Source: Thermodesulfobacterium geofontis OPF15 (GTDB lineage: Bacteria; Desulfobacterota; Thermodesulfobacteria; Thermodesulfobacteriales; Thermodesulfobacteriaceae). Taken from it: a DNA stretch of 64,000 bases. The stretch spans positions 806,001 to 870,000 of the forward strand of contig NC_015682.1 of NCBI RefSeq assembly GCF_000215975.1, read 5' to 3'. Within the stretch, counting starts at the first letter, position 1, and every line of letters begins with the position of its first letter. The notes beneath the pieces are model-generated. The model was not told the origin of the DNA. It saw only the letters and a list, made by a program, of their open reading frames with translations, and searched no databases. The translations under genes and the position numbers were made by a program. This document shows positions 37,434 through 44,092 of the stretch, piece by piece.

Positions 37434-38357
37434 ATGCTCAATTTAAGAGGGCATCATCTTATATGTTTAAATTTTTTTAAAGGAGAAGGATACGATGAGG
37501 TATTTATAAAAAATTTAGAAAAAATTCTAAGTAAAATGGAAAAAGAAAATATAAAAGTTGTAGAAGATTTTGATGATGTTTGTAAAAGCTGTCCTTATCT
37601 TAAAGATGATAAATGTCAGTATAAAGAAGGAGCTGAAGAAAAAATAAGGGAGCAAGATAAAGTTGCATTAGAATTGTTGAAGATAAAAGAAGGTGAAATA
37701 GTTAAATGGGAAGAAATAAAAAATAAACTTCCTGAAGTATTTTCTCAATGGTATGAAAGATATTGTTACGATTGTGATTGGCTAAAAGTATGTGAAACTC
37801 ATCAAATTTTTCAGGATTTATTTCAAGAAGTTCTTTCTCCAGATAAAAAAATACTATCTCTATTTCTTAAGGTTAGGAAAAGTTTTCCAGAGGTTAAAGA
37901 CTCAGTATCTTTACTTAAACCTTATGCCAATTTACATTTTGATCAAATTGAAGACAAAGTACCTTTTTTAAGCATGTATTATCAATTACATTTATATTCA
38001 CCTTCTTGGATTATAAAAAGAGATGAATTTGAAAGGATAATGGGATTTGAGCCAGATCTAATTTATAAAAGTCCAGAAAATACCTATATAATGTCAGTGA
38101 TTTATAATGTGGATAATTATGTAACAGAAGGAGCTATTGCTTATGGATTCTCAGAAGCACTTGCTTTAAGTAGAGGCATGATATTAACCTATGAGGAAGT
38201 TGATTTTATATGTTTTCAGAGAGGTTATGGAAAACAGCTTTTGCTTGCTCTTCAGCATGATCTCTTCCCAGGAATGGTTACCAAACTTTTTGTTGATAGA
38301 GAAGATATTCAGAGAAGAATAGATCATTTAAAAATGCTTTTGGGTTATGCATCCTAA
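37434..38357 (+). CDS. DUF1284 protein with C-terminal extension
   Basis: A 307-residue protein. Residues 1-135 match DUF1284: LRGHHLICLNFFKGEGY, then paired Cys in CKSCPYLKDDKC and CYDCDWLKVC, which look like an Fe-S or zinc site. The remaining ~170 residues are not part of that family; they include MSVIYNVDNYVTEGAIAYG and a final helical region and I do not recognise them. It opens a tight operon: the next gene overlaps by 11 bases. Function is unknown; a metal-binding regulatory or redox role is only a guess. Confidence 0.75.
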   Translation: MLNLRGHHLICLNFFKGEGYDEVFIKNLEKILSKMEKENIKVVEDFDDVCKSCPYLKDDKCQYKEGAEEKIREQDKVALELLKIKEGEIVKWEEIKNKLPEVFSQWYERYCYDCDWLKVCETHQIFQDLFQEVLSPDKKILSLFLKVRKSFPEVKDSVSLLKPYANLHFDQIEDKVPFLSMYYQLHLYSPSWIIKRDEFERIMGFEPDLIYKSPENTYIMSVIYNVDNYVTEGAIAYGFSEALALSRGMILTYEEVDFICFQRGYGKQLLLALQHDLFPGMVTKLFVDREDIQRRIDHLKMLLGYAS

Positions 38358-39267
38358 ACCCAAAATATTAATTAGTAGATGCTTTTTTGAACCAGTTCGT
38401 TATGACGGAGGAATTATATCAGATCCTTTTGTAGATAAATTAAAAAACTACATTGAGCCTATTACTTTTTGTCCAGAAGTGGTTTTAGGATTAGGAATTC
38501 CTCGCCCCCGAATTTTAATTGTTAAAATAAAAGCTACAGAAAGACTTATACAACCAGAAACTGGAAGAGATTTAACAGAAGATATGATAAAGGTTTGTGA
38601 GTCTGCTTTAACTGAGTTTAAAGAAGTAGATGGTTTTTTACTTAAAGCTAAATCACCCTCTTGCGGAGTTAAATCTACTAAGCTTTATCAAAATGATAAA
38701 GTTATTGGAAAAACAAGCGGATTTTTTGCAAGGCTTGTAGAAAAAAACTTCCCTCATTTACCATTAGAAGATGAGGGGCGTTTAAAAGATTTCAAAATTA
38801 GAGATCATTTTTTGATCCGTATTTTTGCTTTTGCTGAATTAAGAGAGCTACTCCAAGATCCCAGCCCTTCTAAATTAGTTAGCTTTCATACCCGATATAA
38901 ATATCTTCTTATGAGTTATAATCAATCAATTCTTAAAAAACTGGGACAAATTGTAGCCTCTCCTAATTCTTTTCAAGAAAAATTGTTGCTTTATAAAGAA
39001 TATTTTTATAAAGCCTTTCAGAGAAAGACCAATGTGCAAAGGCATATTAACACTTTGCAACATATTTTTGGACACCTTTCTAAAGGACTTACTCTTAAAG
39101 AAAAAAGACATTTTTTGGAATTACTAAAAAAGTTTGAGAAAGGGCTTGTAGAACTAATTACTCTACTTGAATTATTAAAAAGCTGGGCTATTCGTTTTGA
39201 AAAAGATTATTTACTTTTTCAAAGCTATTTTGAGCCATATCCAAGAGAATTATTACTTGATATTTAA
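38347..39267 (+). CDS. DUF523-DUF1722 protein (YbgA-like)
   Basis: A 306-residue two-domain protein. DUF523 (1-145) shows SRCFFEPVRYDGG, FCPEVVLGLGIPRPRI and LLKAKSPSCGV, with conserved Cys near 11, 42 and 100. DUF1722 (about 180-295) follows as a helical YbgA-type domain with Leu-Val-Ser-Phe-His-Thr-Arg-Tyr-Lys-Tyr. In other bacteria the pair often sits beside photolyase or repair genes. Here it precedes a Mre11-like nuclease, which fits a DNA-repair setting; the biochemical role is unknown. Confidence 0.85.
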   Translation: MHPKPKILISRCFFEPVRYDGGIISDPFVDKLKNYIEPITFCPEVVLGLGIPRPRILIVKIKATERLIQPETGRDLTEDMIKVCESALTEFKEVDGFLLKAKSPSCGVKSTKLYQNDKVIGKTSGFFARLVEKNFPHLPLEDEGRLKDFKIRDHFLIRIFAFAELRELLQDPSPSKLVSFHTRYKYLLMSYNQSILKKLGQIVASPNSFQEKLLLYKEYFYKAFQRKTNVQRHINTLQHIFGHLSKGLTLKEKRHFLELLKKFEKGLVELITLLELLKSWAIRFEKDYLLFQSYFEPYPRELLLDI

Positions 39268-39270
39268 AAT

Positions 39271-40338
39271 ATGAAAATACTTCACACAGCAGATCTTCAT
39301 TTAAAAGAATATGGAGATGAACGTTGGAAAACACTTCAAAAATTGATTGATATTGCAAAGAAAGAAAAAGTTGATCTTTTCGTAATATGTGGAGATCTCT
39401 TTGATAAAGAGTTTAAAGCTGAGCTTTTGCGATCTAAGATAAGAGAAATTTTTTCAGATAATAATTTTAAAATTCTATTACTTCCAGGAAATCACGATAA
39501 AGAAGCGTATGAAAGTGGTTTTTATTTTGGAGAAGATGTAATCCTTTTAAATAATCTCAATGAACCTTTTGAATACAAAAATGTAGTAATATGGGGATTG
39601 CCCTTTGAACCTATAGAAGGGGAAAAAGTTTTGGCTAAGCTTAATTCATTAACTAATAAATTAGCTTCAAATAAGATCAACATTTTGCTTTATCATGGAG
39701 AGTTACTGGATGCATCTTTTTCAAGAAAAGATTTTGGAAAAGAAGGAGAAGAAAGATATATGCCAGTAAAACTTTCTTATTTTAATGAATTAAATATTAA
39801 ATATGTACTTGCTGGGCATTTTCATTCAAGATTTGAAGTTTGGCAATTAGAAAATGGAGGGTATTTTATTTATCCAGGTTCTCCTATTTCAATAACAAAA
39901 AAAGAAATTGGAAGAAGAAAGGTTAATCTTTTTGAAATTGGGGAATCACCTAAGGAATACTCTCTTGATACACCCCATTTTGAAGAAATAACTATAAAAC
40001 TTGATCCATTTTTAGAAAGGGACCCTTTAGAAATAATAAACGAAAGCCTTGTAAATGTTCATCATCAGGCAAAAATTATTTTAACCATTAAAGGATACAT
40101 TAATAGTAGAAAAATTAAAAAAAATGAATTAGAACTCACAGAAGAAATAAAAAGATTTGTTAAGAATAAATATTTAGTTGAAGAACTTAAAATAGAATTT
40201 AAAGATCTTTATAAAATTTTTGAAAAAGGCCTTTTTATAAAATTTATAAAAAAGCTTGAAAAGCTTCCTTATGAAGAAGAAAAAAAGAAACAAATGTGTG
40301 AAATTTTAATAAGGGCAATGTTAGAGGCAGAATTGTGA
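39271..40338 (+). CDS. Mre11/SbcD-like exonuclease (YhaO-like)
   Basis: A 355-residue metallophosphoesterase nuclease. The five motifs are present: TADLHL (6-11), CGDLFD, PGNHD, YHGEL and AGHFHSRFE. The C-terminal 110 residues form the capping and ATPase-binding part. Its gene overlaps the Rad50-like gene by four bases, the usual SbcDC/YhaO-YhaN arrangement, so the two proteins should form a complex acting on DNA ends. SbcD itself or a YhaO homologue are both possible; the partner's shape favours YhaO. Confidence 0.9.
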   Translation: MKILHTADLHLKEYGDERWKTLQKLIDIAKKEKVDLFVICGDLFDKEFKAELLRSKIREIFSDNNFKILLLPGNHDKEAYESGFYFGEDVILLNNLNEPFEYKNVVIWGLPFEPIEGEKVLAKLNSLTNKLASNKINILLYHGELLDASFSRKDFGKEGEERYMPVKLSYFNELNIKYVLAGHFHSRFEVWQLENGGYFIYPGSPISITKKEIGRRKVNLFEIGESPKEYSLDTPHFEEITIKLDPFLERDPLEIINESLVNVHHQAKIILTIKGYINSRKIKKNELELTEEIKRFVKNKYLVEELKIEFKDLYKIFEKGLFIKFIKKLEKLPYEEEKKKQMCEILIRAMLEAEL

Positions 40339-42668
40339 AAATAAAAGAATTCTTAATAAATCGCTACGGTCCTTTAAAAATTAAAAAACCAATCTTATTG
40401 GATAATTTTAATTTAATTTGGGGAAAAAATGAAGAAGGAAAAACACTTACCATAGAGGCACTTATCAAATTATTGATAGGAGAGGATATTAAAAATTTTG
40501 AAAATATAAACAGAATAGAAGAAAAACCAGAAGGATACGTAATTATAAAAGATTCAAATGGTAAAGAAATTAAATTTCCAGAAAAAAAGAAAAAGTCTAA
40601 TTTACTCCAATTTACCAATTTGACTTCTCAAGAATTTCGTAACATTTTTATAATAAGAAACAGTGACCTCTCAATTTCTAAGGAAAGCGAATTTTATACC
40701 AATATAACTGGTAGACTTACAGGTTTAAGAACTAATGAAATTTACAAAATAAAAAATAAGTTGCTTGAAATAGGTAACTTAACACCAAGCGGTGAGTTCA
40801 AAGATGATAAACCTGAAAAATTGAAATCAAAATTAAAAGAGGCACGAGAGTTGTTAGAAAAAATCCTGCAATTGGAAAATAAAATTCAAGAAAACAGATT
40901 TGATCAATTAGAAAAAGATTTAATAAAGTTAAAAGAGGAGATAGAAAAAATTGATAAAAAACTTGAAATTTTAGAAATTGCAAGGAAAAGAGAAAAATAT
41001 GAGATTGGGAAAAAAGCACTTGAGAAATTGAAAGAATCTCTTGAAAAATTAAAGGATTTAGAAAATTACAATGATAAGGATTGGGAATTATGGAAAGATT
41101 GTGAAAAGGTAATAAAGGAATATATATCTCAAAAAGAGGATGAATTAAAGAAACTTAAAGAAAAAGAGATTGAACAAAAAGAGATAAATGAAGAATTGAA
41201 TGCAATAGAAAGAGATTTTAGGATTTTTGAAGAAAAAAAGAAGAAAATAAATAGTCAGATCTTACCTGAGCTGATAAATTACCGATACGAAAGTGAAAAA
41301 ATTGTCCAACAAAAAGTGAAAGATAAATTCTTTACCTATTTAGGAATATTTTCCATAGTTTTATTAGTTATAGCTTTGATTGGAATTGTTTTTAATCCAT
41401 CATTATTGTTTTATGTTTTGATTTTTAATTTTTTGATTATAGCATTAATTTCAGGATTTTTTAAGTTTCAATTTATTAAAAACAAAGCCCAACTTGCAGA
41501 AAAATTCGAAAAAATTAGATTTTCCTTTTTAGAATTGGGTATGGGAGCAGAGAATATAGAGAAAATATTTATTAATCTGAAGAAAATTGAAGAAGATTAT
41601 AAAAAAATAAGCGAAAAACTTAGAGAATTGGAAATAGAAAAAAGAAAAATTGATGAGGAAATAAAAAATTTGAAAGAAATAAAAATTCTAGAAATAGAGA
41701 AAAAGATTCAAAAAGCAAAAGAAAATATTGAAGAAATAAAAAAGAGATCAAAGGATGAGACTTTAGAAAAATATCAAGAAAAACTTAAATTGAAAAAAGA
41801 GCTTGAAAATTTTATAGGAGAAGAAAAAAGTATATTGAGGACTCATTTTGGAGAAAAGTTTAAGAAATTAGAAGATAATATTGTATATTGGGAAGAGGAA
41901 ATAAAAAAACTTGAAAAATATGCAGATAAAGAAGTAAGTGTAAAATACAATGAAACTGAGGAAGAAGCTTTAAAAAACAAAAAAAGAGAGCTTGAAGAAA
42001 AAGCGAAAGAATTGATTAATAAATTAGAAAATTTTAAAGAAAAAATGAAAGAAATAGAGAAAGAAGTTAATAAAGTTTTAAATTTTGATGAATATTTGTA
42101 TTGCAATACTTTAGTAGACTTAAAAAAGCTTAAAGAAAGGTTAAAAGAATTTGTAGAAGATAATGAAAATAGACGAGCTATTGTGTTAGAAGTTAAAAAA
42201 ATTCTTGAAGAAATAGAAAATGAAGAAATTCAAAAAATTTCTGAACTTTTTGGAAGAGATAGTGATATATCTAAATATTTTGCTGAGATTACAGAAGGAA
42301 AGTATGAAGAGGTCATTTTTGATGAAGAAACAAAAAAAATTAAGGTTAAGCTTAAGGAAGGCACTTTATTGGAGCCTGAAAAATTATCAGGTGGTGCTTA
42401 TGATCAGTTATATTTTTCTATTCGTCTTGCTCTTGGGGAAAAGCTTTTAAAAGAAAATAAAGGTTTTTTTATTTTGGATGATCCTTTTATAAAGTCTGAT
42501 CCATATAGATTAAGAAAACAAATTGAAATGTTAAAGAAGATTTCCAAATTGGGATGGCAAATCATTTATTTTTCTGCAAAAGGAGAAGTAAAGGAAATTT
42601 TAGATGAAGAAATTAAAAAGGGAACTATCAAATATATTGAAATTCAGGAAGTATTAGCTCAGCTTTAA
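40335..42668 (+). CDS. Rad50/SbcC-like ATPase with membrane hairpin (YhaN-like)
   Basis: A 777-residue ABC-type ATPase. The P-loop is GKNEEGKT (near 31-38); long coiled coils rich in Glu/Lys fill 150-320 and 385-640; the signature LSGGAYDQL and Walker B FFILDDPF are near 680-715. At about 333-380, where Rad50 has its zinc hook, there are two adjacent hydrophobic helices and no Cys-x2-Cys. This is the YhaN layout and suggests that the coiled-coil tip is inserted in the membrane. GTG is the start, overlapping the nuclease stop. Confidence 0.9.
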   Translation: MKIKEFLINRYGPLKIKKPILLDNFNLIWGKNEEGKTLTIEALIKLLIGEDIKNFENINRIEEKPEGYVIIKDSNGKEIKFPEKKKKSNLLQFTNLTSQEFRNIFIIRNSDLSISKESEFYTNITGRLTGLRTNEIYKIKNKLLEIGNLTPSGEFKDDKPEKLKSKLKEARELLEKILQLENKIQENRFDQLEKDLIKLKEEIEKIDKKLEILEIARKREKYEIGKKALEKLKESLEKLKDLENYNDKDWELWKDCEKVIKEYISQKEDELKKLKEKEIEQKEINEELNAIERDFRIFEEKKKKINSQILPELINYRYESEKIVQQKVKDKFFTYLGIFSIVLLVIALIGIVFNPSLLFYVLIFNFLIIALISGFFKFQFIKNKAQLAEKFEKIRFSFLELGMGAENIEKIFINLKKIEEDYKKISEKLRELEIEKRKIDEEIKNLKEIKILEIEKKIQKAKENIEEIKKRSKDETLEKYQEKLKLKKELENFIGEEKSILRTHFGEKFKKLEDNIVYWEEEIKKLEKYADKEVSVKYNETEEEALKNKKRELEEKAKELINKLENFKEKMKEIEKEVNKVLNFDEYLYCNTLVDLKKLKERLKEFVEDNENRRAIVLEVKKILEEIENEEIQKISELFGRDSDISKYFAEITEGKYEEVIFDEETKKIKVKLKEGTLLEPEKLSGGAYDQLYFSIRLALGEKLLKENKGFFILDDPFIKSDPYRLRKQIEMLKKISKLGWQIIYFSAKGEVKEILDEEIKKGTIKYIEIQEVLAQL

Positions 42669-42751: not shown

Positions 42752-44092
42752 ATGAACAAAGAATTAATTGAAGTTTTATTAGAAATGGGATGGATTAAAA
42801 AAGCACTTAAAGGAACAAGTTTTTTAGAAGAGTCTGAAAGAATTGAGATGTTAGAAAAAATATTTAATAAGTGTGTCGAAGATGGGTTACTTTATAAAGC
42901 TAAAATGATATTAGAAATGCTTCCAGATTCAAAAAAGAAAGAAGGTTTAGAAAAAATATGCGAAAGATGTATAGGAATGGGATTAATTGATGAGGCAGAA
43001 AGATTAGCAAATATGCTTCATAAGGAGTTAACTGTAGAAGATTTAGAAAGAATGTTGATAAAATGTATTGAGGAAGGATGGATTCCTAAGGTTAGAAGAA
43101 TAATAGAACTTCTTCCAGAATTTAAAAGAATAGAATTATTGGAAAGGATTTTGACCCAGCAGGAATGGATTGAAAAAATAGTTAGAAAAAGTGTTGAAGA
43201 GGCTTGGGCTTCTGAATTAAAAGAAATTGCAGAACTTCTTCCTGAGGATAAAAAAAGGAATTGGTTGGAAAAAATTTTATTAACAACCGAATGGTTAGAA
43301 AAGGCATTAGCGAAATGTTTTGAAGGGGATTCTATTCCAAAAATAAGAAAAGTTGTAGAACTTCTTCCAGAACCTAATAGAACAGAAGGTTTGGAGAAAA
43401 TACTTATAAGGTGTATTAATAAGGGATGGATTTTGCAAGCGAAACAAACTGCTCAACTTCTTCCAGAGCCTAATAGAACAAAAGGTTTAGAGATGATATT
43501 AGAAAAATGTATTGATGAGGGGTGGATTTGTAAAGCAAAAGAAATAGCTGAAATGTTCCCAGAACCTGAAAGGACTAATAAATTAGAGAAAATTTTGGAA
43601 AAATGTGTTAAAGAGGGATGGATTTTTGAAGCAGAAGAAATGTCAAAATTACTTCAAAGAGGACTCTCTATAGAGGAATTAGAAAATATGTTAAAAAAAT
43701 GTGTAGAAAATGGATGGATTGATGAAGCAGAAAGGGTAGCAAAATTAATGGGAAGAAAGTTAACAATAGAGGAATTAGAAAAAATATTAATAAGGTGTGT
43801 GGAGGGAGGATGGATTTATAAAGCTAAAAGAATAATAGCCTATTTTTTGGAATTAAAAAGAATTGAGGGATTGGAAAAGGTTTTGGTAAAGTGTGCTGAA
43901 AACGGATGGATTTTTGAAGTTAAGAGAATAATTGATGTTTTACCGGAACCTAAAAAAATTGAAGGATTAGAAAAAGCTTTAATTTCTTGCTTAAAAACAC
44001 AAGAAGGTTTTGTTCAAGCTAAAGAAATTGCCAAACTTTTTCCAGAACCATTAAAAACTCAATATCTTGAAACACTGAAAGAAACAGAATAG
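42752..44092 (+). CDS. alpha-solenoid protein of 32-residue repeats
   Basis: A 446-residue protein made almost wholly of about 12 tandem repeats. The unit is 32 residues: Leu 7 and 11, Cys 14, Gly-Trp-Ile 18-20, Ala 23, Leu 29-30 and Pro-Glu 31-32 (e.g. GLEKILIRCINKGWILQAK). Two repeats in the middle (near 120-205) carry ten extra residues with Glu-Trp-Ile/Leu-Glu-Lys. Each unit should form two antiparallel helices, as in TPR (34) or PPR (35, or 31 in S-type) solenoids, but the length and the Cys/Gly-Trp pattern match neither. There is no signal peptide. AGAGGGA precedes the ATG. It follows the Rad50-like gene by 83 bases; the ligand may be RNA, DNA or protein. Confidence 0.85.
   Translation: MNKELIEVLLEMGWIKKALKGTSFLEESERIEMLEKIFNKCVEDGLLYKAKMILEMLPDSKKKEGLEKICERCIGMGLIDEAERLANMLHKELTVEDLERMLIKCIEEGWIPKVRRIIELLPEFKRIELLERILTQQEWIEKIVRKSVEEAWASELKEIAELLPEDKKRNWLEKILLTTEWLEKALAKCFEGDSIPKIRKVVELLPEPNRTEGLEKILIRCINKGWILQAKQTAQLLPEPNRTKGLEMILEKCIDEGWICKAKEIAEMFPEPERTNKLEKILEKCVKEGWIFEAEEMSKLLQRGLSIEELENMLKKCVENGWIDEAERVAKLMGRKLTIEELEKILIRCVEGGWIYKAKRIIAYFLELKRIEGLEKVLVKCAENGWIFEVKRIIDVLPEPKKIEGLEKALISCLKTQEGFVQAKEIAKLFPEPLKTQYLETLKETE

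Follow-up and report, generated by a model that had tools for sequence, protein, structure and literature searches.

An open reading frame at positions 42752 to 44092 (plus strand, ATG to TAG) of the window, the 64,000-nucleotide stretch of the Thermodesulfobacterium geofontis OPF15 genome analysed here, encodes a 446-aa repeat protein. A first-pass annotation of the DNA had described a helical repeat outside the known families, had read its array as recently expanded and had suggested PPR-like RNA binding. What kind of repeat is this, how old is the array, and what does it bind? The published genome of this organism, which grows best at 83°C, is 1.6 Mb in size (PMC3624685). In the complete sequence of 1,634,377 bases, the protein is encoded by a single copy. 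Orthologues are present in 4 of 30 Thermodesulfobacteriaceae genomes: that of the window (G000, the reference for orthologue identities), G303 (80% identity), G297 (65%, another genus), and G310 (58%).

When the 446-aa protein was compared with itself, identity reached 36.5% at a lag of 32 residues, 26.7% at 64, and 22.6% at 96; no lag in 500 composition-matched shuffles exceeded 15.4%. Secondary peaks at lags of 42, 74, 84, and 106 are produced by ten-residue inserts. A 32-column profile places unit starts at aa 28, 60, 92, 134, 176, 208, 240, 272, 304, 336, and 368, all of which outscore the best shuffled segment, with the lowest scores in the two lengthened units. A further, degenerate unit starting at aa 400 reaches the listing threshold in the G310 orthologue only. 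The array contains nine regular 32-residue units, two units longer by ten residues, the degenerate last unit, and two caps:

42752 to 44092, plus strand: coding sequence of the repeat protein, an open reading frame of 446 aa with stop codon TAG (dN/dS ~0.13 against the closest orthologue; four orthologues without internal gap).
42752 to 42832, plus strand: N-terminal cap (aa 1 to 27), half a unit, with GWI..A at aa 13 to 18.
42833 to 43120, plus strand: units 1 to 3 (aa 28 to 59, 60 to 91, and 92 to 123), 32 residues each (profile scan; helices in the models).
43121 to 43150, plus strand: ten-residue insert 1 (aa 124 to 133), which makes helix A of unit 4 longer and breaks it in two (in 4 of 4 orthologues).
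43151 to 43246, plus strand: core of unit 4 (aa 134 to 165; profile scan).
43247 to 43276, plus strand: ten-residue insert 2 (aa 166 to 175), placed in unit 5 as insert 1 is in unit 4 (alignment, profile scan, and model).
43277 to 43372, plus strand: core of unit 5 (aa 176 to 207; profile scan).
43373 to 43948, plus strand: units 6 to 11 (aa 208 to 399), six units of exactly 32 residues (profile scan).
43949 to 44047, plus strand: degenerate unit 12 (aa 400 to 432; profile scan).
44048 to 44089, plus strand: C-terminal cap helix PLKTQYLETLKETE (aa 433 to 446; orthologue alignment).

Units of exactly 32 residues, as claimed for the array, are therefore borne out for nine by both the lag of 32 and the profile scan, and the ten-residue inserts said to interrupt two adjacent units lie at aa 124 to 133 and 166 to 175. 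The proposed motif holds well in its first part. Counted over 36 regular units from the four orthologues, L7 occurs in 32, L11 in 29, C14 in 35, G18 in all 36, W19 in 30, I20 in 25, and A23 in 28. Its closing Leu-Leu-Pro-Glu is present in only about half of the units (L29 in 16, L30 in 24, P31 in 17, and E32 in 22). Units 2, 8, and 9 finish in a second loop type, LxR/K-xLTxEELE, versus LLPE-PxRTEGLE elsewhere. At the DNA level, a tandem array with a period of 96 spans 43367 to 43641.

The fold class can be predicted firmly. AlphaFold2 models, with a pLDDT of 86.2 (pTM 0.64) without an alignment and 90.7 (pTM 0.71) with the four sequences, consist of 29 helices and no strands, in an A/B helix order with a period of 32. 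In each regular unit, helix A comes first and is longer than helix B, and in the 42-residue units helix A is split in two; the region of insert 1 is modeled as three helices (aa 123 to 135, 137 to 149, and 153 to 161). Such a model corresponds to an alpha-solenoid of helix hairpins, of the same general kind as TPR and PPR arrays. Foldseek found 80 to 88 matches in the PDB at an E value of <0.001, with whole-length TM-scores of ~0.1 to 0.3. All of the matches listed are helical repeat proteins, among which PPRs are prominent (plant mitoribosome subunits, PPR-DYW, PPR10, and designed PPRs). Besides PPRs, Foldseek and VIA-align retrieved TPR proteins (OGT 1w3b, LGN, Tom70, and NatA), IFT-A, and Ton1535. 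The VIA-align matches, which include PPR subunits of the plastid RNA polymerase, designed PPRs, Ton1535, and the OGT TPR, reach Z scores of at most 9.7, and helical repeats can attain Z scores of up to ~13 through their common arrangement alone. With global TM-scores low and Z scores within that range, the predicted fold does not settle the repeat family.

Sequence comparisons give the unit no established name. We found no coherent family match for the protein in Pfam, NCBIfam, PHROGs, PADLOC, or PDB sequences; no TPR, Sel1, HEAT, or ANK match in Pfam for the protein or its orthologues; and no PPR model among Pfam and NCBIfam matches at E values up to 5, nor for the orthologues at 0.01. Four Pfam profiles (DUF3045, OSCP, wHTH-PRTase_assc, and SMC_Nse1) score above their gathering thresholds, over 20 to 70 residues of longer or unrelated profiles and in shifting places. 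We rejected them because these scores sum many weak K/E/L-rich helix repeats and so reflect inflation by composition and repetition. Also discarded were an AbiEi match in NCBIfam (28 bits against a cutoff of 150) and weak PHROG and PADLOC matches. The best PDB profile match, rPPR5, has a nonsignificant E value of 0.13, and a literature search for such a 32-residue repeat found nothing. Thus, the claim of a helical repeat matching no known family is supported: the 32-residue unit is absent from every repeat catalogue searched, and no clear TPR, Sel1, or HEAT match emerged by sequence.

We compared the unit profile with the consensus sequences of named repeats. When positions 5 to 27 were scanned without gaps, PPR (P = 0.35), TPR (CTPR consensus; 0.48), Sel1 (0.57), HEAT (0.69), and ANK (0.13) behaved like shuffles. 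The unit shares the helix hairpin with TPR, and in the best register Trp4, Leu7, Tyr11, Gly15, Tyr17, and Ala20 of TPR correspond to L7, I10, C14, G18, I20, and A23. The unit is, however, 32 residues long rather than 34, has Leu at the position of the small Gly8, and has no equivalent of Pro32; the TPR pattern W4-L7-G8-Y11-A20-F24-A27-P32 over 34 residues was not found, although the best register of the CTPR consensus is the expected one. The stated mismatch of the Cys and Gly-Trp positions with TPR and PPR consequently holds for Cys14 and Trp19 but not throughout, as Gly18 (like Ala23) is in register with TPR Gly15 (and Ala20). PPR shares the helix-hairpin solenoid but is a 35-residue repeat; over all types, PPR periods range from 31 to 36 (PMC11514114), so that a period of exactly 32 falls inside this range and differs from 35.

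The nearest sequence relative, by weak similarity that provides a lead rather than membership, appears to be the repeat of Ton1535, an all-helical protein from the thermophile Thermococcus onnurineus (PDB 3zpj). Its consensus, A..IA..IPD...RA.AL..IA..L...GD...A over ~33 residues, retrieves 3zpj at 1.6e-14. In the ungapped scan, P values were 0.030 for this consensus and 0.018 for a segment of the actual Ton1535 sequence, which is modest among seven comparisons. hhalign placed 3zpj in the expected register (P = 0.002; PPR, 0.27; TPR, 0.68). In HMMER searches, the two Ton1535 queries were the only ones to outscore all of their own shuffles. The unit registers coincide (L7, I10, L14, F20, V23, I26, and I27), and the Ton1535 loop IPD..R..AL resembles LPEP.RTEGL. 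In VIA-align, 3zpj ranks tenth, spanning the whole model with 260 aligned residues, an rmsd of 23.7, and a Z score of 8.8, below the ~13 that a common arrangement can reach.

These comparisons raise the possibility that the protein belongs to a bacterial branch of the Ton1535-type repeat and shares the role of that family, a reading of its ancestry that we consider tentative and that is compatible with the scaffold role discussed below. The absolute scores are weak (hhalign probabilities of 14% with the single Ton1535 sequence and 2% with a profile of relatives from the same phylum, P = 0.026; HMMER E value of 0.3 in a tiny set), and the similarity is not significant at database scale. The consensus also matches TPR_12 and designed PPRs and may capture only general hairpin features. 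Ton1535 units exceed the present ones by one residue, are irregular, and have neither Cys14 nor Gly-Trp. The phylum relatives in that profile (loci L014 to L027) are long proteins containing ~33-residue IPDP-R-AL repeats whose loop and helix register are similar in the profile alignment; they differ in being much longer and irregular and in having a hydrophobic, membrane-like segment, and they have no significant match to the 32-residue unit. Five of these loci (L014, L015, L016, L018, and L019) contain open frames of 700 to 1,260 aa in which the repeats follow the hydrophobic segment.

The many PPR proteins among the best Foldseek matches, with rPPR5 as the top, nonsignificant PDB profile, would fit a nucleic-acid reader in which one base is contacted per unit and specificity is set by residues of helix A and the inter-unit loop; its groove could be lined by the Lys/Arg that most units have at positions 9 and 13. 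To locate code-like positions, we set variation between units against variation of the corresponding unit between orthologues. Most of the positions that are unit specific yet kept between genomes (21, 31, 1, 2, 6, and 22) lie in the two turns. Of the 36 units, 28 have Lys or Arg at position 9, the equivalent of PPR code position 5 by the inferred register, and positions 5, 8, 13, and 16 are nearly uniform (Glu, Glu, Lys/Arg, and Glu). Under the same register transfer, the repeat-to-repeat differences expected at PPR code positions 5 and 35 were not seen in the 32-residue units. The code-like variation that the first-pass annotation proposed to look for is therefore missing where it was expected: the code-equivalent positions are not the most variable, and the groove side is near-uniform. 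The protein is also net acidic, with 79 Lys and Arg versus 87 Asp and Glu and a pI of 5.5 (range, 5.25 to 6.12), and a PPR consensus scores no better than its own shuffles. RNA binding of the PPR type thus gained no positive evidence, and such a reader is unlikely; the structural resemblance does not decide function, since it is common to many protein-binding solenoids. We regard as very unlikely a PPR-independent family of thermophilic bacteria for modular nucleic-acid binding, in which the turns (positions 21 to 22 and 31 to position 2 of the next unit), not helix A, would do the reading.

Within the genomes searched, the protein is restricted to some Thermodesulfobacteriaceae. A single-sequence search of 297 genomes spread evenly over the phylum found it in no others; a profile search of 395 genomes, likewise spread, added no orthologue; and no relative was found among the phages and viral contigs searched. 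A short-peptide scan of 84,980 genomes, which reaches close relatives only, returned just two loci, both in this family. The profile search gave one match in G311 (E value of 9.5e-4) that resembled a decayed copy with six stops; it lies in another frame inside an intact 527-aa open reading frame, with no convincing DNA similarity, and we attribute it to chance. TPR/Sel1-like matches in actinobacterial plasmids were rejected at only 19 to 22% identity and E values of 0.01 to 0.05.

The four orthologues align over their full length with zero internal gaps, and unit number, unit order, and inserts are all kept. Between genomes, a corresponding unit is 54 to 80% identical, versus 34 to 39% for different units, which indicates that the array was complete before the four lineages split. 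With dS among the orthologues at ~0.8 to 1.8, these identities overturn the earlier reading of a recent expansion, and dN/dS values of 0.11 to 0.26 place the gene under purifying selection. Within the G310 orthologue, units 2 to 3 and 9 to 10 share 87% DNA identity over 159 nt (L008, 1696 to 1854 and 2428 to 2586), suggesting recent homogenization between units in that lineage, perhaps by intragenic gene conversion. Changes toward the protein's own commonest residue are slightly more frequent in G310 (14 of 48 G310-only changes) than in G297 (7 of 33), so that homogenization would account for at most part of the G310 divergence.

Horizontal transfer was suspected because G297, from another genus, is closer to G000 (65%) than the congeneric G310 is (58%). 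We rejected it: the housekeeping protein Era is 89, 82, and 78% identical to that of G000 in G303, G310, and G297, respectively, and silent distances follow the same species order (dS of 1.1 for G000-G310 and 1.7 for G000-G297). Moderate evidence, from dS values that are near saturation above 1, thus points to vertical descent with a faster, homogenizing G310 copy as the better fit. By Era, G311 is very near G303 and G000, and G100 is very near G297; as both G311 and G100 are without the repeat gene, vertical descent with several losses would fit this distribution.

How, then, might the solenoid be used? We think it probable, if by no means assured, that it is a cytosolic alpha-solenoid acting as a scaffold for protein-protein interactions. 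Some 12 helix-turn-helix units of 32 residues, two of them with an extended and split first helix, would stack with a half unit at the N terminus and a cap helix at the C terminus; the first helices would make up a concave, mixed-charge face (judged by register rather than coordinates) that grips one or more partner proteins. A cytosolic location is suggested by the sequence, in which neither a signal nor a membrane segment is evident. A role as a protein scaffold would agree with solenoids of the TPR kind, which mostly bind proteins. The C-terminal cap helix is a plausible docking site because conservation peaks at aa 431 to 444, where 13 of 14 residues are invariant in the four orthologues. 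TPR is by far the commonest solenoid kind in bacteria (PMC11514114). Two observations count against a scaffold: the top-scoring solved structures include several PPR proteins in complex with RNA, ribosomes, or RNA polymerase, and no partner is indicated by the gene neighbors, which differ for each orthologue (G000 and G303 alone have common downstream genes, those for a HAD hydrolase and a MoxR-type ATPase and the ones following).

The protein could instead be a nonspecific structural spacer without a specific partner, in which uniform Glu/Lys ladders stabilize helices at high temperature. The charged positions 5, 8, 9, 13, and 16 are near-identical in all units, and the absence of the gene from most close relatives implies that it is dispensable; but purifying selection, the unit-specific residues kept between orthologues, and the conserved cap make a mere spacer improbable. 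A protein-binding scaffold remains our preferred reading. On its own, the protein shows no new mechanism, and its kind, the helical solenoid, is already well known. It is, on the other hand, a very regular natural solenoid from a high-temperature bacterial family, with a unit new to the repeat databases searched. It adds a 32-residue family to the catalogue of repeats, one orthologue of which appears to show recent homogenization between units. A single sequence suffices for AlphaFold2 to fold the protein. It might also be put to use in design as a thermostable scaffold.

Two observations concern genes upstream in the window. Positions 38347 to 39267 encode a 2-thiouracil desulfurase domain and DUF1722 in one protein. 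Positions 39271 to 42668 encode a compact SbcDC- or YhaO/YhaN-like pair: a 355-aa metallophosphoesterase and, after it, a short SbcC/Rad50-like ATPase of 777 aa with an AAA_27 match just below the cutoff. An operon of this pair with the repeat gene was considered and rejected, as the pairing is not kept at orthologous loci. In G311 (L055, 4615 to 6059), where the repeat gene is absent, a 245-aa open reading frame that looks like a putative Cas6-type CRISPR endonuclease adjoins the HAD hydrolase gene, the orthologue of the one downstream of the repeat gene in the window.
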